DNA of 21,287 bases from a virus, in the IMG/VR virus record IMGVR_UViG_3300035698_023036, positions 1 through 21,287 of that record, one strand, 5' to 3'. Of this stretch, positions 3,829 through 19,718 are shown piece after piece. Position 1 is the stretch's first letter. Every line of letters starts with the position of its first letter. A program made the translations under genes and the position numbers. Under the pieces are notes generated by a model that ran no database searches, had not been told where the DNA came from, and saw nothing but the letters and a program-made list of their open reading frames with translations.

Positions 3829-3905
3829 GGCCCCGTAGCTCAGCTGGATAGAGCAGCGGACTTCTAATCCGCAGGTCATAGGTTCGAATCCTATCGGGGT
3901 CACCA
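3829..3905 (+). tRNA. tRNA-Arg (anticodon UCU), integration target
   Basis: A 77-nt cloverleaf is visible. The acceptor GGCCCCG pairs with CGGGGTC. The anticodon stem GCGGA/TCCGC encloses loop CTTCTAA with anticodon TCT. T-stem ATAGG/CCTAT and encoded CCA complete it. The 3' 48 bp are repeated at 19671-19718 beyond the integrase gene. The element therefore integrated into this gene and rebuilt its 3' part from its own attP copy. Confidence 0.95.
3858..3905 (+). other. attL core (3' part of tRNA-Arg)
   Basis: This 48-bp stretch, running from the anticodon stem to CCA, matches 19671-19718 at 46 of 48 positions. The two differences (A3878/G19691 and T3894/C19707) are the two partners of one T-stem base pair. 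Confidence 0.9.
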
Positions 3906-4035
3906 CCACTTAACTCAATAAAAACAATCACTTATAAATTTGATGCGGTTTCCGTTCCGCGCTTCCGTGTTGCATCATGTTGCAATCTGTATCCATTGGG
4001 TTCCAACGGTTTCCACACAAGTTCGGCTGGTCCAT

Positions 4036-4052
4036 GCGACATATACGCGACA
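4036..4052 (+). promoter_or_regulatory. Candidate integrase arm-type site, left arm
   Basis: GCGACATATACGCGACA contains two GCGACA hexamers with an 11-bp period. It matches GCGACATGGACGCGACA at 19616-19632, inside the right end, at 15 of 17 positions and in the same orientation. In the circular form the two sites would flank the core, as arm sites of tyrosine integrases do. Confidence 0.4.
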
Positions 4053-4061
4053 TGAAAAGGC

Positions 4062-4081
4062 AAATCCGCCACGCGTGGCGG
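4062..4081. repeat. Palindromic repeat copy 1
   Basis: The segment aaatccgccacgcgtggcgg contains the 16-bp perfect palindrome CCGCCACGCGTGGCGG (4066-4081). A second copy lies inverted at 4601-4619, sharing 19 bases, on the other side of the small gene at 4153. The role is unknown. Binding of a dimeric regulator or a replication protein is possible. Confidence 0.7.
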
Positions 4082-4152
4082 TTATGGTCTGGCTTGATAT
4101 GCCTGCAACTTTCGGTGCAAGATATCGTAGTTCCATACTACAGCGAGATAAA

Positions 4153-4422
4153 ATGAGTGATCTTGAAATCAAAGGACAGTTTATTGATGATGTACCCTAC
4201 AGTGGATTGGTCGAGCGATTGCTTCAGATTTCTCTGGTTTGCGTCGTTGGCAGCGAGTCCCAAGAGCACCTATCAAAGTCTGATTTGATAGAATTGCTAG
4301 ATCAGATATCTGGTTTAACGCAAGACGCGCTCCAATTTTCATGCGCTGATATTGAAGATATTGAGCGCATGAACAAATCTATTCTGGCTGGAATGGTAGC
4401 TACAAGAGAACCGCTGAATTAG
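4153..4422 (+). CDS. Small unknown acidic protein at the left end of the element
   Basis: The ATG at 4153 gives 89 residues: MSDLEIKGQFIDDVPYSGLV continuing to ATREPLN. I do not recognise the family. It is acidic, predicted mostly helical, and has two Cys but no clear motif or membrane segment. The same frame is open back to 3940, but that part covers the arm-site candidate and a 16-bp palindrome and looks non-coding. It is the only rightward gene at this end, separate from the structural operon. It is bracketed by the inverted 19-bp repeats, which fits an accessory (cargo) gene such as a superinfection or helper-interference factor; that role is only a guess from position. Confidence 0.5.
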   Translation: MSDLEIKGQFIDDVPYSGLVERLLQISLVCVVGSESQEHLSKSDLIELLDQISGLTQDALQFSCADIEDIERMNKSILAGMVATREPLN

Positions 4423-4834
4423 CACAATGTGCGAATATGTCGTGAAATAGATGTATCCAGATTTGGATGTATCGATATGGCGTTTCATTGTGGGATTTTC
4501 CCATATTGACCCTGGCGTAATTTTGCGCTGGCATTTCCAGTCCTCCGATTACTAGAGGACTAGGCCGCGCAGTCGTACTCATATGAGGACAACTGAAAAG
4601 CGCCACGCGTGGCGGATTTAGCCTCCATATTCAGCGCCCCCAACTTTGGGGTGGTTAGGTGCGTCCACTTTTGGACACATCTATTTTACCTTCATGGGTT
4701 TTCCATAAAATTGTGGAATACTATCGGAGATAGCGACCAGGCTGCCAACTGTGTCGATATCGACACGGTTCAACCATGTTCATATGTACACAGTTCAATC
4801 AGCGCAATTTCGCCGTTGTCGCCAATTGGCGACA
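4423..4834. other. 412-bp non-coding region rich in short palindromes
   Basis: No convincing gene is present. The region holds many short inverted repeats: ATCCA/TGGAT (4455-4468), AGTCCTC/GAGGACT (4539-4561), CTCATATGAG (4578-4587), CGCCACGCGTGGCG (4601-4614) and CCCCAACTTTGGGG (4638-4651). It also holds GTCCACTTTTGGAC (4663-4676), GTGTCGATATCGACAC (4751-4766) and TGTCGCCAATTGGCGACA (4817-4834). Three fit the loose form YCCA-N4-TGGR, and two share TGTCG...CGACA arms. The last abuts the stop of the tape measure gene. Possible roles are operators, a replication or packaging site, or structured RNA. Confidence 0.55.
4601..4619. repeat. Palindromic repeat copy 2 (inverted relative to copy 1)
   Basis: The segment cgccacgcgtggcggattt is the reverse complement of aaatccgccacgcgtggcg in copy 1 (4062-4080). 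The core CGCCACGCGTGGCG is a perfect 14-bp palindrome at 4601-4614. Confidence 0.7.
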
Positions 4835-6796
4835 TTACCTCTGAACTGCCTTTGGTCTCGCACCAAATCGCGCCATTGCCTTGTCATGTTTACCGCTCCC
4901 CAATGCCGCACCGCTGGCATCTACTGATTGTTTCACCGATGCGTTCACGATTGCTGGCGCGGCTTGTTGCACCACCTTTACAGCCTGTTCGCTCGAAACT
5001 TGCTCGATGTATGGCGTCATATTGCCAGCACTATCAGCGGAAATTCCCATTGTCACATGGACCTCAACCGGCCTTGAGTAACCGCTAGCCGATCCACCCT
5101 TAGGAATGATTGTCTCACCGCGTTCAAGAATTGCCGGGACTTCGTTTGGCTTAAGGCCCGCAACACCGCCGCCATGATATCGTGGCGCACCGTTGAAGAC
5201 CGAAGACGCGACGGCGCGTGAAGCACCGCCAGAAGCCCCGACCACGCCGCCGGAATGGTAGAGCGCGCCCAGAGTCACGCCAGATGCTCCGGCGGCCACA
5301 CTCCCTGCGTTAGATTCAGTGCTAAAGCCGCCACCACTTCCCAACACACTGCTGATGAAGCTGCTGATACCGCCACCGCTGAACAGGGAATCGGCTGCTA
5401 TCTGAGCCAATTTATCCAGAACGCTGTCCAGAGCCTTATTGAGGGACACCGTAAAACTCTCACCAGCTCGCAATCCACCTATCAGTGTGCTGAAAGCATC
5501 CCTGCCCACATCGTTCAGGACAGTTTGCTGCTCGGTCAACTGGTCAAATTGGTCAAGGCTGTTTCCGGTATATCCTGCCAGCAAATCGAGCGCGGATCCC
5601 TGATTGTTGATAGAGGTCGTAATCTTGTCGCGAATGATGACTTCTTGCTCCAACACAGCGTTCGTATTGCCAAGCCAGCTATCCCGATTAAAGCCGGAAC
5701 CGAGCGCGCTACCGCTGGACATGTTTTCATTCAATTGTGTTGCTGCCCTTGAGCGCATTTCACCCTTGATGGTGTCTATGCCTTGTAGCGTCCGTTCATA
5801 GCGTGGCCCTTGTTTGTAGAACTCCGCCAAGGCCTCAAGTCTTTTCAGGTCTTTCTGAAGCGTCGAGCCTCTACGGTCTTCAAGCGATTTGGTAGCCTGG
5901 ACAATGCCGTTGATGTTTTTGGCCATTGCACCGGCAAGGCGCGCTGTCTCTGTCATCAACGGCATAAGTTCAATCAGGGCTTGCTGCATGTTTATGCGCA
6001 GCACTTGTGATGCAACACCGAATTTTGTTTCCAGTTCTTCAGCGCTGTTCAGAAGTTCCTTATCGATCACAATTCCCAACTCACGGGCGCGCTTCGCAAC
6101 GTCATCAAATGCAGAAGAGCCACCAACCAAAACCCTTGTCAGTTCAACGCCGGTCCTGCCGAATGCGGTAGTTGCCAGTGCAGCCCGTTCTGTAGCCGTG
6201 CTGGCCCTCGCTGTAGCATCTGCAAGAATGCGCAGCCGTTCCTCTTGGCTTGATGTGCTTTGGAATGCCTTCAGCAGTTCCGGGTTCATCTTCTTGAGCT
6301 GAGTGTAGAGCGTGCCTTGACCGCTGGCTGCAAGGCCAGAGTTTTTGGTGAACACCACAAGTGCAGCGTTCAGTTTCTCCTGAGAGATTGATGATTCATT
6401 CGCTGCAAGTCCCAGGGCTTGAAAGAAGTCGCTGTCTAGCCCTGTATCGCGGGCAGTCTTGGCGATCTTGTCAAAATCAGCCGCCGCCGCTTGTGCTCCC
6501 TGAAACGCTTTCCGAACCGATAATATGCCTGCCACAGCACCGACGGCTGCACCCTTCAATCCTCCAAACGCTCTGCCGAAATCTCCTACGCGCTTTGATG
6601 TGGTGGCAAGGGACTGGTTTATGCGACGGGTGGACCGGTCCATGTCGTTTGCCATCTGCTTGGTGGCTGTGGTCGATCCTTTGCGCATTTGAGCGTAGGT
6701 TTTCTGGGCTGTTTTTTCAGCCTTTATCATCTGCTTTTCGAAGTCCTTAATCCGGGCTTCGAGTTTTGTTACCAGAACGTTTTCATCGCCTGCCAT
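4835..6796 (-). CDS. Short phage tail tape measure protein
   Basis: The 653-residue protein begins with a coiled coil (about 8-65), then an alanine/glycine-rich hydrophobic stretch (about 78-95). The C-terminal half has the classical Gly/Ser-rich segments followed by YHSGGVVG, YHGGGVAGLKPNEVPAILER and GETIIPKGG, the signature of lambda-type and minor-tail tape measure proteins. In phages it sets tail length, coats itself with chaperones, fills the tube and enters the host envelope. At about 1.5 angstrom per residue it would specify a tail near 100 nm. It follows terL by 12 bp with a good ribosome binding site (taggag) and is the last gene of the operon. It is odd here because no tube or tip genes accompany it. 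Confidence 0.88.
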   Translation of the reverse strand: MAGDENVLVTKLEARIKDFEKQMIKAEKTAQKTYAQMRKGSTTATKQMANDMDRSTRRINQSLATTSKRVGDFGRAFGGLKGAAVGAVAGILSVRKAFQGAQAAAADFDKIAKTARDTGLDSDFFQALGLAANESSISQEKLNAALVVFTKNSGLAASGQGTLYTQLKKMNPELLKAFQSTSSQEERLRILADATARASTATERAALATTAFGRTGVELTRVLVGGSSAFDDVAKRARELGIVIDKELLNSAEELETKFGVASQVLRINMQQALIELMPLMTETARLAGAMAKNINGIVQATKSLEDRRGSTLQKDLKRLEALAEFYKQGPRYERTLQGIDTIKGEMRSRAATQLNENMSSGSALGSGFNRDSWLGNTNAVLEQEVIIRDKITTSINNQGSALDLLAGYTGNSLDQFDQLTEQQTVLNDVGRDAFSTLIGGLRAGESFTVSLNKALDSVLDKLAQIAADSLFSGGGISSFISSVLGSGGGFSTESNAGSVAAGASGVTLGALYHSGGVVGASGGASRAVASSVFNGAPRYHGGGVAGLKPNEVPAILERGETIIPKGGSASGYSRPVEVHVTMGISADSAGNMTPYIEQVSSEQAVKVVQQAAPAIVNASVKQSVDASGAALGSGKHDKAMARFGARPKAVQR

Positions 6797-6808
6797 TGTC
6801 TCAGTCTC

Positions 6809-8410
6809 CTAAACGTATGCCATGTCATCTGACCAATCGTCAGACCCATAAAAGCTTTTTGGCGTGTCATCGGCAGCGCACCGGGCGACAGCCATTGCAG
6901 TAGCAACCGCGCCGTCGATCCGGTCTTTGGATTTGCCTTTGTGGAATGATTTATTTTCAGCCTTGTCGATCTGAACTGCAACGTTGTCGAAGTTCCAGCG
7001 CAAGATTGGATGCCCGCCATGCCTGAGTTTGCGGCCAACAATTGCGCGTTCCAGCTCTTTTATAGCCGGACCCATGGTCACCCAACCCTGCCGCATTGAT
7101 GCCGTTGGGTAGCCAGCGTCTGTCAGCGGACCCATAACCTGTTGCGCCATGTGAGGATCAAAGGCGATTTCCTGCACGCTGAATCGTTCGCACAAGTACC
7201 GAATGTGCGCTTCGACGGTTCGATAGTCGATCACGTTCCCAGCTGTCGGGATGATGAAACCTTCTTCAGCCCACTGCGGGTAGGGCACGCCGTCTCTGTC
7301 AGCTCTGCTTTGCAGATTGTCGGCCGGGCAGAAATACCACGGCCAGATATCGAAACCGTCATCAGAGCTTCCCCAACACGCCAACACTGCTGTCAGATCG
7401 GTAGTGGCTGACAGATCTACTGCAAGCCAACACGGCGCACCTTCCAGAAAGTCCAGATCGACTGGCACATTGCCTTCGTCATAAACCCCCATATCCACAA
7501 ATGGGCTTGCGCTGTGGTCCAGCCATACATTCAGATTGAATTGTCGAAAATCATCACGGTCAGACGGCTTTTCCTTGGCTTCGCGCGCCAACTGTCGCAG
7601 CCCATCGATATCCGGAAAACCTTCAGCCAGTCCGGGATTGACCTGATACCATAGCTTTTCATCCTCCCAATCGGCCTTTGCGTCCATTTCAAACAGTATC
7701 GGCAAAAAGCCTGGATCAATTACATCGCCATTTGCCACTTTGCGCGCATAGGACAGCGTATCGAAGGCAAGGTTTTCTTGCCCGCGTCCGGCTTGCGTGA
7801 TTGTGAACAGAAGCGTGTTGGGAACCTTTACAAGGCCTGTGCGAAGTGCCTTCCACAAGTCTCTGTTTTTCCACGCAATCAACTCATCGGCCAAAACGAA
7901 ATTCGGCGTCTTGCCAAGCTGCGCTCCACCATCAGATGATATGGCCCGGAACTCCGATCCTGATTTCGGATGCTCTAGTTCAAAGGTGGACGCTTTTTCC
8001 TTGGCAGCACGCTGCAGCCATGGCGTTGCCTGGACAATGGAAAGTGCTTCATCAAAGGCAATTGCGGCCTGATCCTCAGCCGATGCGCCAACAAGCGCCT
8101 GTCCACCAGTAATACGCTCATATCCAAATGTGTGCAGCAATGCGAGCGCCGCGCCGATGGTGGTTTTGCGTCCGCCGCGTGGCATCAGGCAAAACACATT
8201 ACGAATGATGCGGTTTTCCTTGGCATCTCTTGGACCATAAACGCGCCTGATTATCCGCTCCCAAAACATGGGAAGCTGAAAGGCCTTATCGGGCGCGGTG
8301 CTTTTCGGGTGCTTCAGAGCCTTGATAAACTCGATTGCCCGTTGACCGTGTCCATAAGGATCATCAATTTTGGAATCGTCAAATATCCAGTCCGGGCGGC
8401 GCACCATCAT
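6809..8410 (-). CDS. terL: Terminase large subunit (HK97-type)
   Basis: This is the ATPase and nuclease motor that cuts concatemeric DNA and drives it through the portal into the prohead. In the 533 residues the Walker A region is PRGGRKTT (77-84), a variant form, and Walker B is FVLADE (171-176). The RNase H-like nuclease follows, with acidic residues D332 (AVDLSATTDLTAV), D418 (AFDPH) and D499 (KDRIDGAVA). Length is normal. The start overlaps the terS end by 32 nt, and a second ATG follows directly. It sits near the 3' end of the structural operon, after the connector genes, rather than in front of the portal as in most HK97-type phages. Confidence 0.93.
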   Translation of the reverse strand: MMVRRPDWIFDDSKIDDPYGHGQRAIEFIKALKHPKSTAPDKAFQLPMFWERIIRRVYGPRDAKENRIIRNVFCLMPRGGRKTTIGAALALLHTFGYERITGGQALVGASAEDQAAIAFDEALSIVQATPWLQRAAKEKASTFELEHPKSGSEFRAISSDGGAQLGKTPNFVLADELIAWKNRDLWKALRTGLVKVPNTLLFTITQAGRGQENLAFDTLSYARKVANGDVIDPGFLPILFEMDAKADWEDEKLWYQVNPGLAEGFPDIDGLRQLAREAKEKPSDRDDFRQFNLNVWLDHSASPFVDMGVYDEGNVPVDLDFLEGAPCWLAVDLSATTDLTAVLACWGSSDDGFDIWPWYFCPADNLQSRADRDGVPYPQWAEEGFIIPTAGNVIDYRTVEAHIRYLCERFSVQEIAFDPHMAQQVMGPLTDAGYPTASMRQGWVTMGPAIKELERAIVGRKLRHGGHPILRWNFDNVAVQIDKAENKSFHKGKSKDRIDGAVATAMAVARCAADDTPKSFYGSDDWSDDMAYV

Positions 8411-8789
8411 CAGGCTTGCCTCCTTTCTGGAAGTCTTTCTTTGATCGCGCAGCGGGTGACAATCCCAATTCTGCAGCCAGTCGAGCGCAGATATCCTGAT
8501 ATTTGGTCATCTGGGTTGATGCAGGGTTTGTTTTGATCATGCCGTTGTTGCCGCGAATTACGATGCCAGATTTTTCAATCTCTTTCTGGCAGTCCCGGAC
8601 TAGCCGAATCGCGATCACATAGTTTTGCAGCAACGGCAAAACCGACGGAACCAATAACCTGCGATGCATCAGATCCGTGGCAGCAACTTTCCATTCAGCC
8701 TTTTGATAACTGTTCAGACCGGTTGGAACACGCGGCAAGGCCGTCAGGGCGTCAGTGAGGGGCTTCACTGTAGCTTTTGCACCCTTCAT
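8379..8789 (-). CDS. terS: Terminase small subunit, P27 family
   Basis: It recognises the packaging site and presents DNA to the large subunit. The 136 residues show the P27-family layout: a helical N-terminus with W-K-x-x-A-x-D-L, the central C-Q-K-E-I-E-K-S-G segment, NPA (about 89-91), and the C-terminal LAAELGLSPAARSKKDF signature. Its ATG overlaps the stop of the preceding adaptor gene as TAATG, which indicates translational coupling. Having its own small and large terminase means packaging specificity is probably the element's own and not borrowed from a helper. Confidence 0.9.
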   Translation of the reverse strand: MKGAKATVKPLTDALTALPRVPTGLNSYQKAEWKVAATDLMHRRLLVPSVLPLLQNYVIAIRLVRDCQKEIEKSGIVIRGNNGMIKTNPASTQMTKYQDICARLAAELGLSPAARSKKDFQKGGKPDDGAPPGLDI

Positions 8790-9112
8790 TATGAAACCTC
8801 GCCACGGGCGATGGTGCGCAGTTCCAGACCCTTTCGACGGCCTATCTCTTTGATCTCGATCAGATTGTGCTGGCGGCCGTCATACTCGACCACATCAGAC
8901 AACAGGATATCGTTTCTGAAGCGCGTCCGGAACACGGTCAAGACTTCTGTGCTTTCACCATAGGATTTGATTGCTTCGTCTGTGCTGGCAGTGATGATCT
9001 GGGCGCGCAGAGTGTGCAGAGTTGACAACGTGCCAGACGGTGCACCGAAAGCATCCAGCGTGGTTGCTTCCCGTTTGATCAAAACCTGTTTGTCCAGCTT
9101 GCCCGCTCTCAT
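8789..9112 (-). CDS. Head-tail adaptor (head closure) protein
   Basis: The start ATG at 9112 overlaps the preceding stop as ATGA and gives 107 residues: MRAGKLDKQVLIKREATTLD and onward. The pattern M-x-x-G-x-L-D-x-x-(V/I)-x-(I/L)-x-R, a middle strand RAQI, and F-R-T-R-F-R-x-D-I-x-x-x-D-x-V-x-Y-x-G-R-x-x-x-(L/I)-x-x-I-x-E is the SPP1 gp16-like / phage_H_T_join family. It caps the connector after DNA filling and provides the platform for tail docking. Confidence 0.9.
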   Translation of the reverse strand: MRAGKLDKQVLIKREATTLDAFGAPSGTLSTLHTLRAQIITASTDEAIKSYGESTEVLTVFRTRFRNDILLSDVVEYDGRQHNLIEIKEIGRRKGLELRTIARGEVS

Positions 9113-9561
9113 AGGTTTGCCACCCATGTTTCCTGCACAAGCGCATTGATTGTGATTACACCGTGCGCGGTCTCGCCGTCAGGATCACGCATTGTGCGAG
9201 AATCTTCGATAAAGGCATCACAGATCGCGTTTTCTGGATCATCCATTGTTTCAGAATCGTAGGTTTCGAAATATCGACTTGTGCGCATAGCCCGCCTGAT
9301 CGCACTCATGATGCTGTGAAGCTCATTCATACCCTTTTCACGGGTCCAGATATGGACGTTCAAAAAAACCCGCGACACGTCACGCTGCAGCAAATCCTGA
9401 CCAAGCATTGTCTGAGTTTCGCCCATGATTATTGAGGGAAACAGTTCGGGACGGGAACTCAGATCAAGAACGCTAGTCGCTGGCACAAGCGCAATAACTG
9501 CTGCTGTGTTTACAAGCCTGTCTCTGATCGCAAACTGCAGGGTGCGTGCGGGGTCCATCAC
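9109..9561 (-). CDS. DUF3168 tail terminator (tail completion) protein
   Basis: The 150 residues show the DUF3168 pattern: P-A-x-x-L-Q-x-A-I-R-D-R-L at the start, a central FPSIIMGETQT, then VFLNVHIWTREKGMNELHSI and the terminal R-D-P-D-G-x-x-x-H-G-V-I-x-x-x-A-L. Members (SPP1 gp17, lambda gpU type) form a ring that ends the tail tube and joins it to the head. In an element without a tube gene it could act as the fitting to a helper tail. It overlaps the gp10-like gene by 4 nt and the adaptor by 4 nt. Confidence 0.87.
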   Translation of the reverse strand: MMDPARTLQFAIRDRLVNTAAVIALVPATSVLDLSSRPELFPSIIMGETQTMLGQDLLQRDVSRVFLNVHIWTREKGMNELHSIMSAIRRAMRTSRYFETYDSETMDDPENAICDAFIEDSRTMRDPDGETAHGVITINALVQETWVANL

Positions 9562-9989
9562 TTACCCCAATTGTCTTTGACGGCCTTATTCACGGCACGT
9601 TTGATGCGGGCAAGAGCTCGTTTTTTGTTCAACCGATAGGCAGGCCAGAAGAACGGCTGCGCAGGTGCCAGAGTTGTCCCATACTCCACCAGATGCGGAT
9701 ATCTTACCTTGTGATTTCCTACTGTGATGACCGCCGCATTTTCTGGCACGGTGTATGATCCGCCTGGCTGTGAATGCGCCGGTGTTCGATTGCCTGCCGT
9801 CGTGACTGCAATACTGTCGATCAGATCGCCAGAATCCTTGGACGATTCCGCAAGCTGGCGCATTGTAGCTGCCATTTCTTCAGCGGATTTATTGATTGCA
9901 GGCTGGACGATTTCCTGCACCGCTTTGGTGATCGAGCGCATCTGCTTGCTGAGATTGCCAATTCCGCCATCATCAATCATCAGAACCAC
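9558..9989 (-). CDS. HK97 gp10-like head-tail joining protein
   Basis: The 143 residues have a basic helical N-terminus and the typical C-terminal block with PHLVEYGTTLAPAQPFFWPA followed by YRLNKKRALARIKRA. V-E-(Y/F)-G-T and P-(A/R)-P-F-x-x-P-A mark the HK97 gp10 / minor structural family, found between the connector and the tail terminator. The first start (GTG 9989) overlaps the connector stop; ATG 9980 (MIDDGG) is an alternative that shortens it by three residues. Confidence 0.87.
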   Translation of the reverse strand: MVLMIDDGGIGNLSKQMRSITKAVQEIVQPAINKSAEEMAATMRQLAESSKDSGDLIDSIAVTTAGNRTPAHSQPGGSYTVPENAAVITVGNHKVRYPHLVEYGTTLAPAQPFFWPAYRLNKKRALARIKRAVNKAVKDNWGK

Positions 9990-10564
9990 CGTGTGCGGTA
10001 GTTAGAGATTGTATCAGAAACACCCATTGGCATTTCATTGGCGGCCATTCCAATAATTGAGGCTTCCCGGTTTTCGTAAAGGTGCGCTGCCAACATCAGG
10101 ACAGCGCCTTTCAGGTCGGCAGGAACACTTGCAGCGTCTGCACCATAGCCAGCATTGAACGTGATACGGACACTGGCATTTGCAAAACCGACTGTCGGCC
10201 ATGTCACATTTTGAGATGGTATAATCGCGACGCCAACATCACTGCCAAGCCCGGAAATAAAATACTGATCGCTTGCCAGCGTCTGCCATACCCAATCTGC
10301 ATCGAGGTACTGTACGCTTGCCACGCTCACCACTGGATCACGGGGCAGGGCGATAAAGTTTGGCAGTCCGTCCAGCGTCAGAAGATAGTCCGCATGGGTA
10401 AGAGCCCGACCCGTATCACGCTCAACGCGAAGCTGTGCGGCACGAATGAAGCTTTCCAGAAAGGCATTGGTGTCTGGATGACCATCTTCAAAATTCAGAT
10501 GACTTTCAAACTCTGCAACCGTCGCGGCAAGAGGTACATCTGTTGTTATTGTCTTCAAATCCAT
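9980..10564 (-). CDS. Head-tail connector, gp6 / phiE125 gp8 type
   Basis: The 194 residues match the size of the phiE125 gp8 family and include an N-terminal HK97 gp6-like connector fold. Marks are E-S-F-I-R-A-A-Q-L-R-V-E-R-D-T-G-R-A-L, L-P-R-D-P-V-V-S-V-x-S-V-x-Y-L-D, the strand ITFNAGYG, and V-P-A-D-L-K-G-A-V-L-M-L-A-A-H-L-Y-E-N-R-E. It forms the ring below the portal. The ribosome binding site aaaggtaaaggt precedes the ATG. Upstream there is a 200-bp gap after the HNH gene. Confidence 0.9.
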   Translation of the reverse strand: MDLKTITTDVPLAATVAEFESHLNFEDGHPDTNAFLESFIRAAQLRVERDTGRALTHADYLLTLDGLPNFIALPRDPVVSVASVQYLDADWVWQTLASDQYFISGLGSDVGVAIIPSQNVTWPTVGFANASVRITFNAGYGADAASVPADLKGAVLMLAAHLYENREASIIGMAANEMPMGVSDTISNYRTRWF

Positions 10565-11158: not shown

Positions 11159-11174
11159 GGGTGTCTCCTGTGTT

Positions 11175-11214: not shown

Positions 11215-11288
11215 TGTTGGCATCCACCAACATGCGGAGCGCACATCCCGTGAGCTCCAGTGACCTGCAATGCCGGGCCGAAAGGATA

Positions 11289-11345: not shown

Positions 11346-11351
11346 ATCTCG

Positions 11352-12521: not shown

Positions 12522-13063
12522 GGCCGTGGTCCTTTTTTCAATGAGCGCGAAGCCTTGCGGCATGCGAGTACCAAGGCCGCCGCGCCCTCGTTCATGCGGC
12601 CTAATTCGGTTCGTACAAATTCAATCCTTGCCCCTGGTGCACTCGGAAGCGCCACAAGGCTGATTTCCTTCAGATCGATCTGTTTGAGAATTCGTGTGTT
12701 TTTCTGTCGGCTTTGCTTCTGGATGATAAATCCAATCGATAGGCCATCCAGAGCGCCAGCTTTCAGCAATGCGAGTGCTTCTTGACCGCGCCGGGTTTCA
12801 GTGACAATCTTGCCAGAGACCGCTAGCCCGCGTTCATCTTCTGTCACGCTGTCCCAGACGCCAATTGGTTCAGATTGATCGTGAGCCCAAAGCATCAACG
12901 GGCGCGTTTTCCGGCTCTTGTGGCTGCTTAGAGAAAGGGCAAACGCGCCACGCTCCAAAACTTCATTGTGTCCGTTTCGCTCGTTCCATACTGCGGCATG
13001 ACCTCGGATCAAGCCTGTATCGGTTGGCGCTTCGAAGCGTACTGAGAGATCAAGCTGGCGCAT
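12518..13063 (-). CDS. Prohead maturation protease, HK97 family (U35)
   Basis: The serine protease removes the delta domain of the capsid protein during maturation. In the 181 residues the catalytic His is H61 in LMLWAHD and the Ser is S109 in DGLSIGF. The typical start (L-S-V-R-F-E, G-H-A-A-V-W-N) and the S-L-V-A-x-P-S-A-P-G-A segment are present. Its start overlaps the preceding gene by 14 nt and its stop overlaps the capsid start by 4 nt, so the order portal, extra gene, protease, capsid is translationally coupled. Confidence 0.93.
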   Translation of the reverse strand: MRQLDLSVRFEAPTDTGLIRGHAAVWNERNGHNEVLERGAFALSLSSHKSRKTRPLMLWAHDQSEPIGVWDSVTEDERGLAVSGKIVTETRRGQEALALLKAGALDGLSIGFIIQKQSRQKNTRILKQIDLKEISLVALPSAPGARIEFVRTELGRMNEGAAALVLACRKASRSLKKGPRP

Positions 13064-13565
13064 CTGCTTCAGCCTGTTCAGTTTCAGAGTTGGTGGATTG
13101 TTCCATCTCGGCTTGGATCAACCGAGCCTTTTCAAGGATTTCCTCCCGTTCCAAATCGCCATCGATATCCGGATCGCTCCATGCAGGCGTATAATTTGCC
13201 AAGGTGTCGATCTGGGCGCGCAACCATGTGGCCGCATTGATCACGCGAATCTTGGCTTCTTTGGTGATGGGCACCGGCTTGCCGTCTTCAAACACTTCCC
13301 AGTCAATAATTGTATCTGCCAGAAACTCGACAATTTTCTCGTCTTTTTCCTTGGCGTTTCGCGGCTGGTTGCGGCTCGAATAGCGCTCTGATCTTGGATT
13401 AAGCCAATCCTCAAGATCAAACCGCAACTGTTTCTGTGCCGGGCTATCGGGTCCGATGATTTTGACGCGAATTCCTGTTGGCAATGCCGTGGCCGGATTC
13501 AAGATGTCGTGCCAAATGCCCTTGGTTTGCAATTTGACATTGCGATGAAGTTTTGAAAGATCCAT
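13050..13565 (-). CDS. Tail-assembly-chaperone-like protein (tentative)
   Basis: ATG 13565 overlaps the portal stop as TGATG and gives 171 residues. The layout P-A-T-x-L-P-T-G-I-x-V-x-I-x-G-x-D-S near 25-42, a charged helix, then W-E-x-x-x-x-G-K-P-x-P-x-T-x-E and W-x-x-x-Q/A-x-D-x-L recalls a family of siphophage proteins that I associate with tail assembly chaperones. This rests on remembered patterns, not on a search. The C-terminus is acidic and disordered-looking. It sits between portal and protease, where head phages normally have nothing, far from the tape measure gene it might serve. It could instead be a head accessory or scaffold protein. Confidence 0.8.
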   Translation of the reverse strand: MDLSKLHRNVKLQTKGIWHDILNPATALPTGIRVKIIGPDSPAQKQLRFDLEDWLNPRSERYSSRNQPRNAKEKDEKIVEFLADTIIDWEVFEDGKPVPITKEAKIRVINAATWLRAQIDTLANYTPAWSDPDIDGDLEREEILEKARLIQAEMEQSTNSETEQAEADAPA

Positions 13566-14758
13566 CAAGCAGATTCCTTTGACGGTGTTGTGTTTGGATT
13601 TTGAAAGACGTCACCCCCCGCGTAGGGCGGCAGGTTTTCGCGGGCGCGGATTTCGTTCGGGCTCATGATCCGGGATGAAATCAGCTTGCCGTAGGCTTCT
13701 GATCGGCTGGACAGGTCAGAGCGCATGAAATCGTCCAAAAGATACTCGGCGCTGTGTGTGGCTTGTTCGTCTTCTGAGAACAGCTTGAGTCGGCACTCGC
13801 CTTCCCATTGCTTGATCCAGCGCATCAGACTGAAGCGAACAAAGGTCATGCCCATCTCGGAAGCATTGCCCCAAGTTGCGCGGCCAAGTTCGTAAAGCAT
13901 GTGAGGCGGAACCCGGAAAATGCGGCCGATTTCTTCAACAGCAAATCTGCGCAGTTCCAGATATTGCGCATCAACGCTGGACAGAGCCATCTGGGTAAAG
14001 CTTGCACCGTCATAAATGAATGCAGTCCGCCCGGCATTGTCGCTGCCTTCCTGAGCGGCTTTCCATCCAGCGCGCATTCGGGTGATGACTTCAGGCGAAA
14101 CATTGCCCGGAACAGAAATCACTCCGCCTGGCTTTGCTCCGTTTTTGAACAATGAAGCGCCATGCTGTTCCAGAACCAGAGCCAATCCGATTGCGTCTTT
14201 GCATTGCTGCACCGGGGATTCACCGCTGACACCATCGAGTGAGGGCGCTTTGATGTGGATCACGTCCTGAAATGGGTAGATGTGCTTCGAGGTTGTTTGC
14301 TGGTGAACATATGACGGTTCACCGGTCAGATCGTTGGTTTCAATCGTGACCTGTTCTGGTGACAGTCGAATAAGCTCTCGTGGAACATCATCAACCCGAT
14401 TGACGAATGCAAAGCCGTTGCCGTGCAATAACGCGTCTCTGGTGATCTGCTCTCTCAGCTCGCTGGCTGTTGTGAAGGCGTTGGCCTGATCGTGCAGCAA
14501 CCCGTAAACCGGGTGGTCTTTGTCGCGGCTCTTGGAGCCGTCTTCGCCTCGCACGTACACGTGCAGGGGAAGCTGCCCCAATGGTTCCGCAATAGCCTGA
14601 ATGGCCGCTCTGGAAGCCGTGCATTGCATCGCTGTCCGAGCATTGACCGAAACACCGGCCTTTGACGGTGATGCCCCGAACAAATCCATCAGCCATTGCT
14701 GCGGATTAGCGAGTGAGCGGGTCTCTTGAAGACCGAATATACGGTTCCATAATTTCAT
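13565..14758 (-). CDS. Portal protein (HK97 gp3 / phage_portal family)
   Basis: It forms the dodecameric ring at one capsid vertex through which terminase pumps DNA. The start ATG 14758 (MKLWNRIFG) gives 397 residues; a GTG at 14773 in the same frame would add five. Visible marks are QWLMDLFG, TAMQCTASRAAIQAIAEPLG, LPLHVYVR, DHPVYGLLHDQANAFTTASE, LHGNGFAFVNR, IRLSPEQVTIE, VIHIKAPSLDG, the LFKNGAKPGGVIS clip region, and FRVPPHMLYELGRATWGNAS toward the C-terminus. The length is normal, if on the short side. It starts the capsid gene series. Confidence 0.95.
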   Translation of the reverse strand: MKLWNRIFGLQETRSLANPQQWLMDLFGASPSKAGVSVNARTAMQCTASRAAIQAIAEPLGQLPLHVYVRGEDGSKSRDKDHPVYGLLHDQANAFTTASELREQITRDALLHGNGFAFVNRVDDVPRELIRLSPEQVTIETNDLTGEPSYVHQQTTSKHIYPFQDVIHIKAPSLDGVSGESPVQQCKDAIGLALVLEQHGASLFKNGAKPGGVISVPGNVSPEVITRMRAGWKAAQEGSDNAGRTAFIYDGASFTQMALSSVDAQYLELRRFAVEEIGRIFRVPPHMLYELGRATWGNASEMGMTFVRFSLMRWIKQWEGECRLKLFSEDEQATHSAEYLLDDFMRSDLSSRSEAYGKLISSRIMSPNEIRARENLPPYAGGDVFQNPNTTPSKESA

Positions 14759-14773
14759 GGAGCCAATATACAC

Positions 14774-14830: not shown

Positions 14831-15067
14831 TTAGTGGTTTTTTTCTGAATCAGAATAATCCGCACTTGTGATCCAGCGGGTCAATTCCGTTTTGGTCGAG
14901 ACCCATTTGCCAGCACGCTTGCGAATTGGTGCATCGGTTTTTACGATTCTATCGAAGCGTTCAACAGTGCAGTTCAGGAAGTACGCAATCTCCTCTCTGC
15001 CCCAGATAATCTCATGCCTGAGTGTTGCAGGCGGATTGAAAGTTCTTTTTGTCGGTTCATTCATCAA
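14831..15067 (-). CDS. Small winged-helix DNA-binding protein
   Basis: The 78 residues contain a MerR/HTH_17-like wing-helix at about 21-67: IIWGREEIAYFLNCTVERFD, then the wing IRKRAGKWVS and T-E-L-T-R-W-I. This fold is used by excisionases, AlpA-like activators and Nu1-type DNA packaging proteins. The ATG overlaps the stop of the DUF6074 gene as ATGA. Its position directly before the capsid genes suggests a late-gene regulator or an extra packaging-site binding protein. Confidence 0.72.
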   Translation of the reverse strand: MMNEPTKRTFNPPATLRHEIIWGREEIAYFLNCTVERFDRIVKTDAPIRKRAGKWVSTKTELTRWITSADYSDSEKNH

Positions 15068-15381
15068 AAATTGCTCTTATCGTTGTTTGTTTTTTGGGCA
15101 TGATAGAGAATTGTAGCCAGCTCTTGCTGAACAGCATCGAAGAAATGATCGACCTCATTTTCGATTTCATCATCGGTCAAAATGGTCTTGCTCAAATCCG
15201 CCCTGTGCCAATCGCACTGACGATTCCAATAACTTGATGCATCTTTGCCCTGTTTGCGGGAAAGGACTTCAGCGACTCGGCGAATCTTTCCAACACGACG
15301 ATTCAGCGGAAACGCCAACACGACTGCAGTATCTGGCTGCTTGCTCATGGCCCTGAAAAGTGGAAGGTCATCGTGCATCAT
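15064..15381 (-). CDS. DUF6074 family protein
   Basis: Starting at MMHDDLPLF it has 105 residues. The DLPLF start, V-V-L-A-F-P-L-N-R-R-V-G-K-I-R-R-V-A-E-V-L, the Y-W-x-x-Q segment and the C-terminal DHFFDAVQQEL match DUF6074, a family I know from rhizobial phages and integrated elements. Its function is not known. An upstream TTG at 15393 or a downstream ATG at 15348 are alternative starts. A 10-codon frame with a strong Shine-Dalgarno sequence overlaps its start. Confidence 0.75.
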   Translation of the reverse strand: MMHDDLPLFRAMSKQPDTAVVLAFPLNRRVGKIRRVAEVLSRKQGKDASSYWNRQCDWHRADLSKTILTDDEIENEVDHFFDAVQQELATILYHAQKTNNDKSNF

Positions 15382-15400
15382 GAAAAACGCCAAAATCCAT
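15368..15400 (-). CDS. Possible leader peptide MDFGVFHDAR
   Basis: A ten-codon frame begins with ATG at 15400, preceded by gaggggtcc (15405-15413), a far better ribosome binding site than that of the DUF6074 gene. Its stop lies inside the start region of that gene. It may deliver ribosomes by translational coupling. Evidence is positional only. Confidence 0.25.
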   Translation of the reverse strand: MDFGVFHDAR

Positions 15401-15578: not shown

Positions 15579-16184
15579 TCAATATCCACCTGACTGCCTC
15601 CTGTATTCCAATGCCGTGTCTGTGTCTTTTTTTGTGCTGTCATCTACAGAGCCATATTCTGAGCCCGCTCTGTTACTTAGGTGTTCATCTGTAAGGTGTT
15701 TGTCATCTAAGGTGTTAGGGGCCCAAATTTGGTCTGTCGGGAGGTGACGAATTTGGTCTGTCGAGAGGTGACGAATTTGGTCTGTCGAGATTTTCTGACG
15801 TACCAAATCTGCCCTGTCAGAAACTCGCTTATCACGGATCATCATCAAGTTGTCCCTGATCAAATTCGACCGCTTTGTGAGAAAAATGTATGAGTTTGAT
15901 TTCTGCCGGTTTCCACGTTTGACACTCAACCAACCAGTTTTTTTAAGATTTTGGATACCCCTTCGAGCCCGTCTAATTCCACTCTCGTGCAACTCGCCCA
16001 TTTGATCGGCAATCGTCCTTTGCGATGGATAACAGGCGAGCGTGTCCTTGTTGACGTGCTTCAGAAGCACTAGAGCCACACGGACGCCCAGGTCTGAAAC
16101 CTGCTTATCACCTGTGATTAATTGCTGCAGCTCTAGCTTCTGGCTGGTGAATGATTTGGCGTCTTTTTCTTCTGCTGCACTCAT
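15579..16184 (-). CDS. HTH replication-initiator-like protein with internal iterons
   Basis: The 201 residues start with a winged-helix domain of HTH_36 type (about 28-105): SDLGVRVALVLLKHVNKDTL, CYPSQRTIADQMG, and RRARRGIQNLKKTGWLSVKR. This is the domain of plasmid and phage replication initiators. The C-terminal third contains an 8-residue repeat (STDQIRHL twice, then PTDQIW, 133-154) encoded by 24-bp tandem DNA repeats that look like iterons. I infer that it binds these repeats as origin. It has no helicase or primase motif, so host or helper enzymes would do elongation. The ATG overlaps the TOPRIM gene stop as ATGA. Confidence 0.72.
   Translation of the reverse strand: MSAAEEKDAKSFTSQKLELQQLITGDKQVSDLGVRVALVLLKHVNKDTLACYPSQRTIADQMGELHESGIRRARRGIQNLKKTGWLSVKRGNRQKSNSYIFLTKRSNLIRDNLMMIRDKRVSDRADLVRQKISTDQIRHLSTDQIRHLPTDQIWAPNTLDDKHLTDEHLSNRAGSEYGSVDDSTKKDTDTALEYRRQSGGY
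15726..15790. repeat. Tandem 24-bp iterons, likely replication origin
   Basis: Three direct copies begin with AATTTGGTCTGTCG and continue RGAGGTGACG. They lie at 15726-15749, 15750-15773 and 15774-15790; the last is partial. A degenerate further copy (aaatctgccctgtcag) lies at about 15805-15820. The period of 24 bp is close to two helical turns. The copies differ at one base. They lie within the rep-like gene, as do origins in several phages and plasmids. Confidence 0.75.
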
Positions 16185-17104
16185 TCAGCACCACCTTCCA
16201 GAAGATCGACCACTTCAGGCCATTTCCAATAAAGTTCTTTCAAATGGGTTTTGGCTTCGTCTTCACGATCCTTGACCGCATCCCATGCCGCCTGATCGGT
16301 AATGCAGGATTGCAACTCCTTGCGCACCAGATCGGAAATCACACGCGGTTCCAGGGCGTCCAGTTCCCATGAACTATCGCCATACAAGCGCCTGTATTCA
16401 TGGGCGCGTGTGTCGGTTTCCTTGGCTGGATTAGGTGGTGGCCGGTAGCTTTCAATTTGATCCATATTCAAGGCAATGCGCCTGATTTCAACGTCATGTC
16501 CTGAGAACAAAGAGCACCGGGTTTGATTGTCGCGGGTCATATCGAGCCCGGATGGATCGTGGTCACCCAAGTGAATAATCACCGGACGCTTGCCCGCTTC
16601 ACATGCTTGGCGGAACCGTTGCCCGCCACGCCAGCTTTCAGACGCTGACAGATAGCCTTTGCAGGCCAAATAGGTAGCGCGATACTCTTTGCATACGCTC
16701 TCGATTGTGCCGGTCAGAGCGTCTTTTTCAATCCAGACTTCGGGATAGATTTCTTGATCCAACCATGGATCAATGATGATCTTGCGCTCAAGCCCATAGA
16801 GAACACTACGCGGATCACTCTCACCACTGACACGCAATGCTGTGCGTCCGCGATCCTCAATTGCCTGCCATGAAATCAAGCCAGCCTCTCGGCCTTTGGA
16901 AATGAGATTACCGAGCGCCTTGTAGCTGCGCTCGATGTTGTCCAGATAGGCCCGGCTGACAAATTGATAGTACAGTTGACGCAAATTCAGCGTGAGTCGA
17001 TAGCCTTCATATTCCGCAATAATCGCGTTTGCCTGCGCAATGCGGTCAAGGCTGTTTTGTTGGAAATTGTGTTCCTTGAACTGTTCCAGCATCAAGAGGT
17101 CCAT
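16181..17104 (-). CDS. TOPRIM protein related to Topo VI-A / Spo11
   Basis: The 307-residue protein has an N-terminal winged-helix region with NLRQLYYQF (Y45-Y46), the position of the catalytic tyrosine in Topo VI-A and Spo11. A TOPRIM domain follows: E126 in EVWIEKDAL and the D-x-D motif in LGDHDPSGLDM (D181, D183). The C-terminal 90 residues include L-D-A-L-E-P-R-V-I. Function is inferred only: a DNA-cleaving or topoisomerase-type activity in replication or recombination. It sits in the replication module, where many satellites carry a primase-helicase. Similar proteins occur in alphaproteobacterial phages, usually as hypothetical. The first ATG overlaps the upstream gene by 13 nt; ATG 17092 is an alternative. 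Confidence 0.78.
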   Translation of the reverse strand: MDLLMLEQFKEHNFQQNSLDRIAQANAIIAEYEGYRLTLNLRQLYYQFVSRAYLDNIERSYKALGNLISKGREAGLISWQAIEDRGRTALRVSGESDPRSVLYGLERKIIIDPWLDQEIYPEVWIEKDALTGTIESVCKEYRATYLACKGYLSASESWRGGQRFRQACEAGKRPVIIHLGDHDPSGLDMTRDNQTRCSLFSGHDVEIRRIALNMDQIESYRPPPNPAKETDTRAHEYRRLYGDSSWELDALEPRVISDLVRKELQSCITDQAAWDAVKDREDEAKTHLKELYWKWPEVVDLLEGGAE

Positions 17105-17703
17105 TCGTCTTCTGAACGGTTGTGATCGTATTCATCACCACTCGGCTCGGAACAGCTGTCTCCGTCCATGATATCCATAACCGTCAACAGGGCATTCACT
17201 ACGGATGAAATTACCTCCCTCAGATGGAAGTCTTGTTCTGCAGTGATGGTCTGATTTTGGGTATAGGCAGTACGCTCTATATCGTTGAATAGACTAAGCA
17301 GAACCTTGCCGTTCGCGCTTGGCTCCTCGAAGCACCCTTCATTGAAATTGGTTGGCATTTTCAGCCATTGAATCTTGGCTTTCAGGTCTTGGAGCGTGAG
17401 CGCTGGCATTGCTGCCAGTTGCTCGTCAATGCGATAGGATTCGTTCCAAAGCGCTTGCTCTTGCGGGCTTTCTTCTGCTGTCCCAGGCATTGCGTTGATC
17501 TGGTCGTAAATCTCTGCATATCGGTTAACGAGTGCTGGAATTGAGGGCAGACGGTTACCCTCAAGGGCGATCCCGATCATTGCATTATTCAAGGTCTGTG
17601 TGCTATTGGTTCCCATGTCCAAATCATTCCTTTGCGGGCTTGGTAGGATTACGGCTCGGCGGGAGTGCAATCCCGACCGGGCCATTTTTGTTTGCGCGTT
17701 CAT
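17092..17703 (-). CDS. Unknown protein in the early operon
   Basis: ATG 17703, overlapping the previous stop as ATGA and preceded by gagg at good spacing, gives 203 residues. I do not recognise the family. The middle is predicted helical (PALVNRYAEIYDQINAMPGT, SYRIDEQLAAMPALTLQDLK), and the C-terminus is strongly acidic and Ser/Asp-rich (DSCSEPSGDEYDHNRSEDEW). No enzyme motif or membrane segment is visible. The Y-x-x-I-Y-D-Q-I-N and alanine-rich E-Q-L-A-A-M-P pattern suggests a helical bundle. Coupling with xis-like and TOPRIM genes points to regulation or replication. Confidence 0.7.
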   Translation of the reverse strand: MNAQTKMARSGLHSRRAVILPSPQRNDLDMGTNSTQTLNNAMIGIALEGNRLPSIPALVNRYAEIYDQINAMPGTAEESPQEQALWNESYRIDEQLAAMPALTLQDLKAKIQWLKMPTNFNEGCFEEPSANGKVLLSLFNDIERTAYTQNQTITAEQDFHLREVISSVVNALLTVMDIMDGDSCSEPSGDEYDHNRSEDEWTS

Positions 17704-17888
17704 GCTGTGACCTCGCTGAAGAACTGTTCCAGCGTCTTGCGATCTGCGACCCAACGGCCGCCGACTTTTTTGGCTGGCAGTTCACCGGTCGAGAGCATGT
17801 AGAAGGTTTGGCGCTGGTTCCTGCCAATGAACGCGGAAATCGTTTCCACCCCCCAAAGCAGCTCTAAATTTTCTGGATTTTTGTTCAT
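17700..17888 (-). CDS. Excisionase / AlpA-like winged-helix protein
   Basis: ATG 17888, preceded by aaaggtgg, gives 62 residues. They contain an HTH_17 fold: ELLWGVETISAFIGRNQRQT, F-Y-M-L-S-T-G-E-L-P-A, wing KKVGGRWVADRKTLEQFF. It is the first gene of the leftward operon, opposite the integrase pair. This is the place of excisionase or of AlpA, the activator of many Gram-negative PICIs. The longer frame (from 17939) would start upstream of the likely transcript start, so the downstream ATG is preferred. Confidence 0.8.
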   Translation of the reverse strand: MNKNPENLELLWGVETISAFIGRNQRQTFYMLSTGELPAKKVGGRWVADRKTLEQFFSEVTA

Positions 17889-17926: not shown

Positions 17927-18004
17927 TTAACGTTAACATACGCCTGTCAATTGCATTGTAAAGAGTTTTGTGCCAATTGGTGCCACTAAATTTGAGGTTT
18001 TGGC
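17927..18004. promoter_or_regulatory. Divergent early promoter region with palindromes
   Basis: The 120 bp between the xis-like and RHH-like genes must hold both early promoters. Leftward, TTTACA (17957-17962, minus strand) and TATGTT (17935-17940) are 16 bp apart. The palindrome TTAACGTTAA (17927-17936) covers the -10, a natural repressor position. GTGCCAATTGGTGCC (17970-17984), with core CCAATTGG, lies on the rightward side. A similar core occurs in TGTCGCCAATTGGCGACA at 4817-4834. Confidence 0.45.
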
Positions 18005-18448
18005 ATGTCTAATGATAAAGAGAAGGGACAAAGGCGTGTCTACGTGCTCCCACATGATCTGGTCGAACGCATCGTTGAATATCAAAATGAGATGGGTATA
18101 GCCTCGGAAGTAGAGGCCGCTCGGCGACTGTTAGATGAGGCTCTTATGCGCCGAGACGATTGGCGTTCAATCGCCAAACGGTTCAAGGAACGGTTGACAG
18201 AAACCCGCGTTCTGACTGACATAGCAAAAGATGTTTTGATCGGACACCCGCTTGTGTCGAAGGTAGCTTTTAAGACCAATTCCGTTGAATTCAGCTTGTC
18301 TACTGATGAAAATGTGGAGATCAATAAATCAGGAGAAGTAACCGCCCAAGACGAACATGGGCGCTACATGGAATATGAGCCCAAGTCAAAAATGCGGGTC
18401 ACTGGAAGTAGCTTTGCAGTGGATATGGACGACGAGCCACCTTTCTAA
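18005..18448 (+). CDS. Ribbon-helix-helix-like protein co-transcribed with integrase
   Basis: The 147 residues begin with a ribbon-helix-helix-like segment (about 9-48): QRRVYVLPHDLVERIVEYQN, E-M-G-I-A-S-E-V-E-A-A-R-R-L-L-D-E-A-L. A helical linker and an acidic beta-rich C-terminus follow. Ribosome binding site gagg precedes the ATG. It ends 2 bp before the integrase ATG, so the two are probably one operon. It could be the element's repressor, the only candidate given the absence of a CI-type protein, or an integration accessory factor. I do not recognise the C-terminal half. Confidence 0.72.
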   Translation: MSNDKEKGQRRVYVLPHDLVERIVEYQNEMGIASEVEAARRLLDEALMRRDDWRSIAKRFKERLTETRVLTDIAKDVLIGHPLVSKVAFKTNSVEFSLSTDENVEINKSGEVTAQDEHGRYMEYEPKSKMRVTGSSFAVDMDDEPPF

Positions 18449-18450
18449 CG

Positions 18451-19614
18451 ATGTCAGTCCGCAAGCGCACATGGACCACATCTAGCGGCGAGGCCAAGGC
18501 CGCATGGGCTGTTGATTATCGCGATACGGGCGGTAAGCGACGACTGAAGACATTCCGCCTCAAGAAAGACGCTGATTCGTTTGCCGCCACCAGTCATGTG
18601 GAAGTTGCATCCGGAAGGCATGTCGCGGATAGGGGTAGCGTCACGGTTGCGCAGGCCGGTATGCTGTGGATTGATGCTTCGGAAGCTGCTGGACTGGAAC
18701 AAAGCACCGTCAACCAATATCAGCAACACACAAGACTGCATATCAATCCGTTTATCGGTGATGCGCTGCTATCAAAACTGACAGTGCCGCTTGTCCGTAA
18801 GTTTTCAGACGATCTGCGCGCAGCTGATAGATCCATGGCGATGGTGCGCAAGGTTCTAGTGTCGCTGGGTTCACTGATCGCAGATGCGCAGGAAAGGGGC
18901 TTGGTTGGCCGTAACGTGGTCAGAGACATGCGCGGACGCCGTAAGAGCATAGACAAGACAGAGAAGCGCCAGAAAGGCCGTCTGAAGGTCGGGATTGATA
19001 TTCCCACACCGGAAGAGGTCAAAGCGATCCTGTCAGTGCTTGAAGGCCATTGGCGGCCAATAATTCTAACGGCGGTCCTGACAGGTATGCGGGCATCTGA
19101 ACTGCGCGGCTTGTCATGGGCTGGTGTCGATCTGGATAGAAATGAAATCAGGGTTTATCAGCGTGCGGACAGGTTTAACCGGATCGGTCCACCCAAGTCC
19201 GTTGCCGGTGAGCGGACTATACCAATCACACCCATGGTTGCGACTGAATTGAAACAATGGAAAGAACTGTGCCCTGCAGGCGACCTTGATCTTGTGTTTC
19301 CAACTGGCTCGGGCAATGTGGAAAGCCACTCAAATCTCCGCAGCCGTGGTCTGATTCCATTTGTGGAGCGGGCAGGGGTGATAGACCGAGACGGAAACGC
19401 CAAGTATTCAGGATTGCATTCTCTGCGCCATTTCTATGCATCCTGGTGCATCAATCGGAAAGAGGATGGCGGCTTAGGCCTTCTGCCAAAGACCGTTCAA
19501 GAGCGAATGGGGCATTCATCCATCACCATGACATTGGACGTCTATGGACACCTGTTTCCGCGCAACGATAACACTGAAGAAATGGCCGCTGCTGAAGCGG
19601 TGCTGTTTAATTGA
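18451..19614 (+). CDS. int: Tyrosine recombinase integrase
   Basis: This enzyme catalyses site-specific integration at the tRNA-Arg 3' end. The 387 residues comprise an arm-binding N-terminus, a core-binding SAM-like domain (about 64-165) and the catalytic domain. Catalytic residues are R214 (TGMRASEL), K249 (GPPKS), H323 and R326 (GLHSLRHFYAS), H355 (MGHSS) and nucleophile Y365 (TLDVYGHLFP). All six are present and the frame is intact. It ends 56 bp before attR, the usual int-att arrangement. No separate ribosome binding site is clear, so coupling to the upstream gene is likely. Confidence 0.96.
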   Translation: MSVRKRTWTTSSGEAKAAWAVDYRDTGGKRRLKTFRLKKDADSFAATSHVEVASGRHVADRGSVTVAQAGMLWIDASEAAGLEQSTVNQYQQHTRLHINPFIGDALLSKLTVPLVRKFSDDLRAADRSMAMVRKVLVSLGSLIADAQERGLVGRNVVRDMRGRRKSIDKTEKRQKGRLKVGIDIPTPEEVKAILSVLEGHWRPIILTAVLTGMRASELRGLSWAGVDLDRNEIRVYQRADRFNRIGPPKSVAGERTIPITPMVATELKQWKELCPAGDLDLVFPTGSGNVESHSNLRSRGLIPFVERAGVIDRDGNAKYSGLHSLRHFYASWCINRKEDGGLGLLPKTVQERMGHSSITMTLDVYGHLFPRNDNTEEMAAAEAVLFN

Positions 19615-19615
19615 C

Positions 19616-19632
19616 GCGACATGGACGCGACA
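19616..19632 (+). promoter_or_regulatory. Candidate integrase arm-type site, right arm
   Basis: GCGACATGGACGCGACA has two GCGACA hexamers with an 11-bp period, lies just after the integrase stop and 38 bp before attR. It matches the left-arm candidate at 4036-4052 at 15 of 17 positions. Confidence 0.4.
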
Positions 19633-19670
19633 CAGTGGAAAATAAATAAACGATTACAGCGACTTGATAG

Positions 19671-19718
19671 GGACTTCTAATCCGCAGGTCGTAGGTTCGA
19701 ATCCTACCGGGGTCACCA
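19671..19718 (+). other. attR core (displaced tRNA-Arg 3' half)
   Basis: The stretch holds the 3' part of tRNA-Arg from the anticodon stem to CCA without a 5' half. It matches 3858-3905 at 46 of 48. Its T-stem reads GTAGG/CCTAC instead of ATAGG/CCTAT. By the normal mechanism this is the original chromosomal 3' end. Confidence 0.9.

Follow-up and report, generated by a model that had tools for sequence, protein, structure and literature searches.

A candidate capsid-forming satellite in an alphaproteobacterial chromosome with predicted tail-shaft genes of its own

How much of a virion can a phage satellite make for itself when the end of its tail is borrowed? The question is raised by viral record IMGVR_UViG_3300035698_023036, 21,287 bases long and referred to here in its full length as the window, which holds a 15.8-kb satellite element in an alphaproteobacterial chromosome. 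Published satellites take capsids, tails or both from their helpers, and the one demonstrated builder of part of a tail, described in 2026, is a phage-inducible chromosomal island-like element (PLE). The first-pass annotation had likened the element to capsid-forming phage-inducible chromosomal islands (cf-PICIs), which make their own heads and take tails from helpers; the capsid-forming satellite stands, whereas the borrowing of the tail has to be narrowed, since the element appears to encode a tape measure, a chaperone and a terminator, and 31 of 65 relatives a tube protein in addition. From its genes, it is probably an integrated capsid-forming satellite, which would make the head itself and direct the assembly of a chimeric tail.

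The revision starts from two genes missed in the first-pass inventory, which was right in the head and packaging genes that it named. The largest gene (4835..6796, minus strand) encodes a 653-aa predicted tail tape measure protein, assigned through PHROG tape measure families (best E 7e-21) and a C-terminal match to phage tape measures, and a 172-aa predicted tail assembly chaperone (13050..13568, minus strand) lies between the portal and protease genes, recognised by phrog_313 (E 6e-10) and a 20-member family alignment. The AlphaFold model of the chaperone has a pLDDT of 87.6, and its top PDB match, at a non-significant level, is the HK97 chaperone 2OB9. A gp17-like tail terminator is encoded at 9109..9561 on the minus strand (Pfam Tail_completion_gp17; phrog_176). 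Because the tape measure and chaperone were identified, the window is predicted to carry part of a tail-shaft module besides its head genes, not a head alone. Neither tail tube, tip, fibre, lysis nor CI genes were detected in the window by Pfam and PHROG profiles and six-frame queries, in agreement with the first-pass annotation; a hidden tube gene was rejected after a six-frame profile search, queries with other tube proteins and PHROG searches of the remaining open reading frames all proved negative. With the window tape measure as query, viral contigs yielded zero matches.

Head formation and packaging are encoded in intact, abutting frames, all on the minus strand and named much as they had been at first: portal protein (13565..14773; Pfam Phage_portal, E 4e-95); S78 prohead protease (12518..13063; Pfam Peptidase_S78); HK97-fold major capsid protein (11352..12563; Pfam Phage_capsid, E 2e-82); HNH endonuclease (10766..11233; Pfam HNH, phrog_2323); gp6-like head-tail connector (9980..10564; Pfam Phage_connect_1, phrog_442); HK97-gp10-like neck or tail completion protein (9558..9989; Pfam HK97-gp10_like, 44% identical to its counterpart in Labrenzia phage vB_LagS-V1); head closure or head completion protein (8789..9127; Pfam Phage_HCP); small terminase subunit TerS (8379..8789; Pfam Terminase_4); and large subunit TerL (6809..8410; Pfam TerL ATPase and nuclease, phrog_9 E 4e-131). 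Each of these, together with the terminator and the integrase, passes Pfam or PHROG profiles.

The limits of the element are equally firm. A repeat search located two direct repeats of 48 nt, 96% identical, at 3858-3905 (attL, the 3′ half of tRNA-Arg(TCT)) and at 19671..19718 (attR, plus strand), the tRNA gene itself being called by ARAGORN at 3829..3905 on the plus strand. Four relatives with whole genomes, from the same order (L186-L189), have the site empty, their left flank (up to 93% identical to that of the window over 2.9 kb) passing through the tRNA into the bases that follow attR; the sequence after the tRNA in the nearest of them corresponds to window 19719-19733. The boundaries are exact because these relatives join left flank and tRNA directly to the post-attR bases, and the 15.8-kb element bounded by att repeats is confirmed, as are the integrase and attachment sites first proposed. 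Searches of the same four genomes gave no TerL or tape-measure match, and thus pointed to neither a helper nor a sister element. Just right of attR, at 19955-20601, lie accessory genes of IS66 type whose sequence is TnpA/TnpB-like, and these limit comparison of the right flank with relatives.

By TerL and gene order, the window belongs to a family that comprises 79 loci. Alphaproteobacterial genomes, mostly of Hyphomicrobiales and Rhodobacterales, account for 71 of these; the TerL search itself matched seven viral contigs and 71 alphaproteobacterial genome loci. Their common module runs portal, (chaperone), protease, capsid, (128-aa protein), HNH, (tube), connector, (gp10, terminator, head closure), TerS, TerL, (tape measure), with bracketed genes present in some members, and the tape measure stands directly 3′ of TerL in 51 of 79 loci. 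The order of ten marker genes is identical in 65 of 66 loci tested, a recurrence that excludes a chance arrangement. The first-pass annotation had suggested looking for many elements of 14-18 kb at tRNA attachment sites without tip or lysis genes, and the outcome is favourable: 31 att-bounded elements, nearly all at tRNA genes, span 15.0-18.5 kb (median 17.5), none with a recognised central tip or lysis gene. Its idea of a new lineage likewise gains support, no isolated phage record having a TerL at least 60% identical. In a class-wide sample of 385 genomes, TerL identity of at least 50% was found in the centre genome and three others; the centre genome holds a second element with the full kit apart from the tube.

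The 128-aa protein (phrog_5707), of unknown function and lacking from the window, directly follows the capsid gene in L020 (6333-6719) and 48 other loci, head-only elements included, and is likely a head decoration protein. A separate oddity is the Devosia rhodophyticola locus L055, where tandem TerL genes occupy 9956-13206 and an incomplete portal gene, a connector gene and large open reading frames come after the second; its layout is read as two elements fused or recombined.

Tail kits differ between members of the family. Counted over the 65 loci having portal, capsid and TerL, tube, tape measure, terminator and chaperone occur together in 31; tape measure, terminator and chaperone without a tube in 11, the window among them; tape measure alone in eight; tape measure with chaperone in two; and no tail-kit gene in 13, which are head-only. 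The 161-aa protein present in 31 loci is identified as the major tail (tube) protein by phrog_158 (E 8e-21) and by a structural model for which Foldseek returned lambda gpV (8k36) at E 3e-8 and probability 1.0; the other tail genes of the family include chaperones of Phage_TAC_6, _11 and _18. In each of L020, L027, L032, L042, L049, L053 and L060 the major tail protein is encoded by a pair of paralogues that adjoin or lie close together. Mapped on the TerL tree, tube presence requires 15 changes, at least 11 of them forced by supported branches, so that kits must have been exchanged or lost repeatedly. Comparison of L013 with L072 gives dN/dS values of 0.03 (TerL), 0.05 (tape measure) and 0.01 (tube), and the tape measures of L030 and L031, in which no tube is recognised, give 0.13; these ratios indicate that purifying selection acts on the tail genes of relatives. 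The genome of Martelella lutilitoris GH2-6 contains as many as three satellites of one TerL clade (L012, L013 and L016) beside a full prophage (L155); one of the three has a full tail-shaft kit, and the other two, which are head-only, might use its shaft.

An element so equipped would operate as follows. Induction by a helper phage would be followed by excision of the satellite, replication from its own initiator and filling of its own head, with a capacity of roughly 16-18 kb. The satellite chaperone would load the satellite tape measure, whose C-terminal end would dock on the tip complex of the helper; helper tube protein would then polymerise along the tape measure in the case of the window, and in the 31 relatives the tube would be the satellite's own, with tip, adsorption device and lysis left to the helper. 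Satellite terminator and neck proteins would cap the tail and connect it with the satellite head. Whether the alphaproteobacterial lineage as a whole follows this plan, making the head and, in about half of its members, the whole shaft while taking only the tip from a helper, with the tape-measure C-terminus as docking key and repeated switching between head-only, tape-measure-only and full-shaft states, is judged evenly balanced. Were it so, a family spread over dozens of alphaproteobacterial species, with the three states side by side, would show the extent of self-sufficiency in a satellite that still borrows its tip. Such a family would also be a natural setting in which to ask how setting tail length benefits a satellite and what determines helper specificity. 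Genes could in addition pass among plant-associated and marine bacteria by way of these elements, certain of which carry candidate defence genes.

The docking step has a precedent in 80alpha, whose tape measure is attached through its C-termini to the tip protein Tal (PMC11661146), and similarities along the tape measure are in keeping with it. Residues 1-378 of the window protein are 40% identical to a satellite tape measure, and for residues 534-597 the identity with tape measures of autonomous phages is 56-77%. Several satellite host genomes also house a full prophage that has tip genes: in Martelella mediterranea, host of L072 and of prophage L156, the last 229 residues of the L072 tape measure are 65% identical to the co-resident prophage; for L059 the Dit identity is 52% and the tape-measure C-terminus match ranks first among satellites; for L013 gpM is 61% identical and the last 74 residues of the tape measure 47%; and for L030 the co-resident match is also the top of its set. 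The satellite tape measure is usually the shorter of the two (632 vs 1040 for L013 and prophage L155, 706 vs 937 and 686 vs 750), that of L052 being longer. These pairs are suggestive of a helper link and fall short of proof, because related hosts carry related phages. A clean division of the protein, N-terminus with satellites and C-terminus with phages, was considered for the whole family and rejected on a weaker per-decile count, and holds for the window and selected co-resident pairs.

Several observations weigh against a self-directed tail. The satellite is known here from sequence. Similarity at the tape-measure C-terminus is common among autonomous, unrelated phages and is therefore no peculiarity of satellites; when all satellites are counted by decile, the best match to an autonomous phage is C-terminal in 28 cases, N-terminal in 14 and in the middle in 10, and the co-resident match is not the top one in every genome. 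Additional genes of the distal tail occur in a small number of elements (gpM in five, Dit in three), and L003 has a phrog_32 tail assembly protein, so the borrowed set varies between members. The dN/dS pairs are drawn from relatives, the tape measure of the window having no close relative for such a comparison.

A simpler arrangement, unlikely yet the best of the alternatives, is one in which the helper gives the entire tail, tape measure included, and the tape measure and chaperone of the satellite are vestigial or otherwise used, for example in interfering with helper tails. The 13 head-only relatives must indeed take whole tails, the window has no tube protein, and published cf-PICIs are described as helper-dependent for tails, so far as PMC10690885 relays them. 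Vestigial genes are nevertheless hard to reconcile with the joint retention, in many lineages, of an intact tape measure, chaperone and terminator or with the purifying selection seen in relatives, and PLEs do incorporate their own tape measure (PMC12987554).

Deletion offers a second explanation, regarded as improbable, whereby the element is a decaying siphophage stripped of its tube, tip and lysis genes. The presence of a tube gene in relative L010 and its lack in the window would suit such decay, as would the frequent gain and loss of the tube on the TerL tree. Gene order speaks otherwise: canonical siphophages such as vB_LagS-V1 run TerL-portal-protease-capsid-connectors-tube-chaperone-tape measure-tip, whereas the satellites, with ten marker genes in constant order in 65 of 66 loci, place the chaperone between portal and protease and the tape measure after TerL, and every frame is intact within a narrow range of element sizes. 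Homologous full-length prophages, named at the outset as a finding that would count against a satellite, were not encountered with the same order at TerL identity of at least 50% in the data searched; phages, viral contigs, genomes and the class-wide sample contain no full-length prophage with a TerL of this clade. Two inspected places with canonical order, L144 and L145, were dismissed as prophages of the clade, their TerL being only 33-34% identical.

It is more improbable still that the elements are complete miniature phages whose tip and lysis proteins have diverged beyond recognition. A complete temperate siphophage has tube, tip, adhesin and lysis genes, none of which is recognised in the window. 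The 31 relatives with head and complete tail shaft come close to such a phage, accessory genes of unknown function are present, and sequence searches are limited in reach. In alphaproteobacterial siphophages, on the other hand, the gene for the tip is large and follows the tape measure gene at a short distance, a place where the satellites have a chaperone, small genes or nothing. Of 16 queries for tip, fibre and lysis proteins, taken from phages of Alphaproteobacteria and similar ones, none matched in six frames of the 79 loci, while positive controls gave matches in other phages and prophages. The accessory proteins scanned (the first 25 families of each list, rarer content being possible) resemble primases, helicases, regulators and candidate defence genes, that is, replication, regulation and defence functions.

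Least credible is the borrowing of a tip from a host gene transfer agent (GTA): most of 20 host genomes searched encode a tip protein of the size usual in GTAs, about 1300 aa, yet the tape measures of GTAs, at about 200 aa, resemble those of satellites weakly and over a short motif. The tip family PF13550 was present in all 20 of these genomes, at GTA clusters and prophages, and never located at a satellite. Nor is the window itself a GTA, which would be host-fixed, without integrase or att site and with tip genes; it has an integrase, att repeats and empty sites in relatives, and no tip gene. The 18-kb 'phage' record MW091529 (L190), with a related capsid, was dropped from the comparison for its GTA-like layout beside efflux genes; this sewage 'bacteriophage' entry (MW091529.1) encodes a tape measure of about 180 aa, a peptidase and a 1272-aa tip followed by the efflux genes, and is probably host chromosome.

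The satellite that probably directs a chimeric tail thus resembles cf-PICIs in head and packaging and PLEs in tail strategy, and by the tests made is a member of neither. With cf-PICIs (Alqurainy et al. 2023, as relayed in PMC10690885) the window shares its own capsid, protease, portal, head-tail connectors, TerS, TerL and HNH, an integrase with an att site, the lack of tip and lysis genes and the characteristic size. By the same account cf-PICIs have no tail-forming genes and draw the whole tail from the helper, whereas the window has tape measure, chaperone and terminator, and many relatives the tube as well; the differences extend to host range, to the placing of terS-terL after the connectors and before the tape measure, and to replication, which depends in the window on an HTH_36 initiator and a topoisomerase-family protein, with primases in some relatives. 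'cf-PICI-like' is preferred to 'cf-PICI' because tail-forming genes are present, though some published cf-PICIs also carry a putative tmp and the lack of tail genes may therefore not be strict; these share with the window a capsid-forming habit and a candidate tape measure, a comparison drawn from the legend to Extended Data Fig. 10b of PMC12987554, on whose maps tmp and int are marked.

PLEs of Vibrio cholerae, like the window, lack a tube gene but encode a tape measure and a tail assembly chaperone (PMC12987554). Their chimeric tails are demonstrated, PLE11 virions containing the satellite tape measure and having tails about 10 nm shorter (PMC12987554), whereas the window is known from its genes; and PLEs hijack the helper capsid, whereas the window has a capsid gene of its own. 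PLEs differ further in having a gene for a baseplate hub protein and in exploiting a lytic helper with a contractile tail. A tape measure encoded by a satellite is by itself already known from PLEs and, as a putative tmp, from some cf-PICIs (PMC12987554); no description of a satellite encoding a tube protein was found, in a literature search that did not reach key cf-PICI papers. The Streptomyces satellites MulchRoom and MiniFlayer also have their own capsid and packaging genes and differ in virulent helpers, terminal repeats, a lack of replication genes and no reported tape measure (PMC10690885). Siphophages vB_LagS-V1 and Rhizobium phage 16-3 share a homologous neck (gp10, 35-44%) and the tape-measure C-terminus, and differ as full phages of 39-60 kb in canonical order, both with tube, tip and tail fibre; vB_LagS-V1 has an endolysin as well.

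The remaining genes of the window serve, as far as they are recognised, integration, regulation and replication. The tyrosine integrase (18451..19614, plus strand; Pfam Phage_integrase, phrog_1) is directly preceded by a gene at 18005..18448 on the plus strand, whose product matches phrog_16979 (E 6e-40), of unknown function, and by inference may be a DNA-binding regulator. As regards the regulators and pri-rep replication of PICIs, the window shows an AlpA-like helix-turn-helix (HTH) protein and an HTH_36-type initiator, and no primase. The former (17700..17888, minus strand) is a weak candidate excisionase or regulator, with HTH_17 at E 0.008, below the cut-off, and family members that adjoin int elsewhere. 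The latter, a candidate O-like replication initiator (15579..16184, minus strand; Pfam HTH_36, phrog_270, phrog_391), contains three 24-bp direct repeats (15726..15797, plus strand) found by repeat search, which are in frame, encode a (T/S)DQIRHL protein repeat and are candidate origin iterons. Also on the minus strand are a protein annotated as DNA topoisomerase in PHROGs (16181..17104; phrog_6247, E 4e-99), an early protein of unknown function called by a codon model and without a PHROG (17092..17616), a DUF6074 protein (15064..15393; Pfam PF19551) and a small HTH-like protein upstream of the portal gene (14831..15067), recurrent in the family by its matches and without a Pfam domain. At the left end, a small open reading frame of unknown function and weak coding signal (4153..4422, plus strand; codon-model call, no PHROG) lies in a poorly coding stretch of 0.5 kb, flanked by two near-identical CGCCACGCGTGGCG palindromes in opposite orientation (4062-4090 and 4596-4624), which are possible terminators or a possible packaging site.

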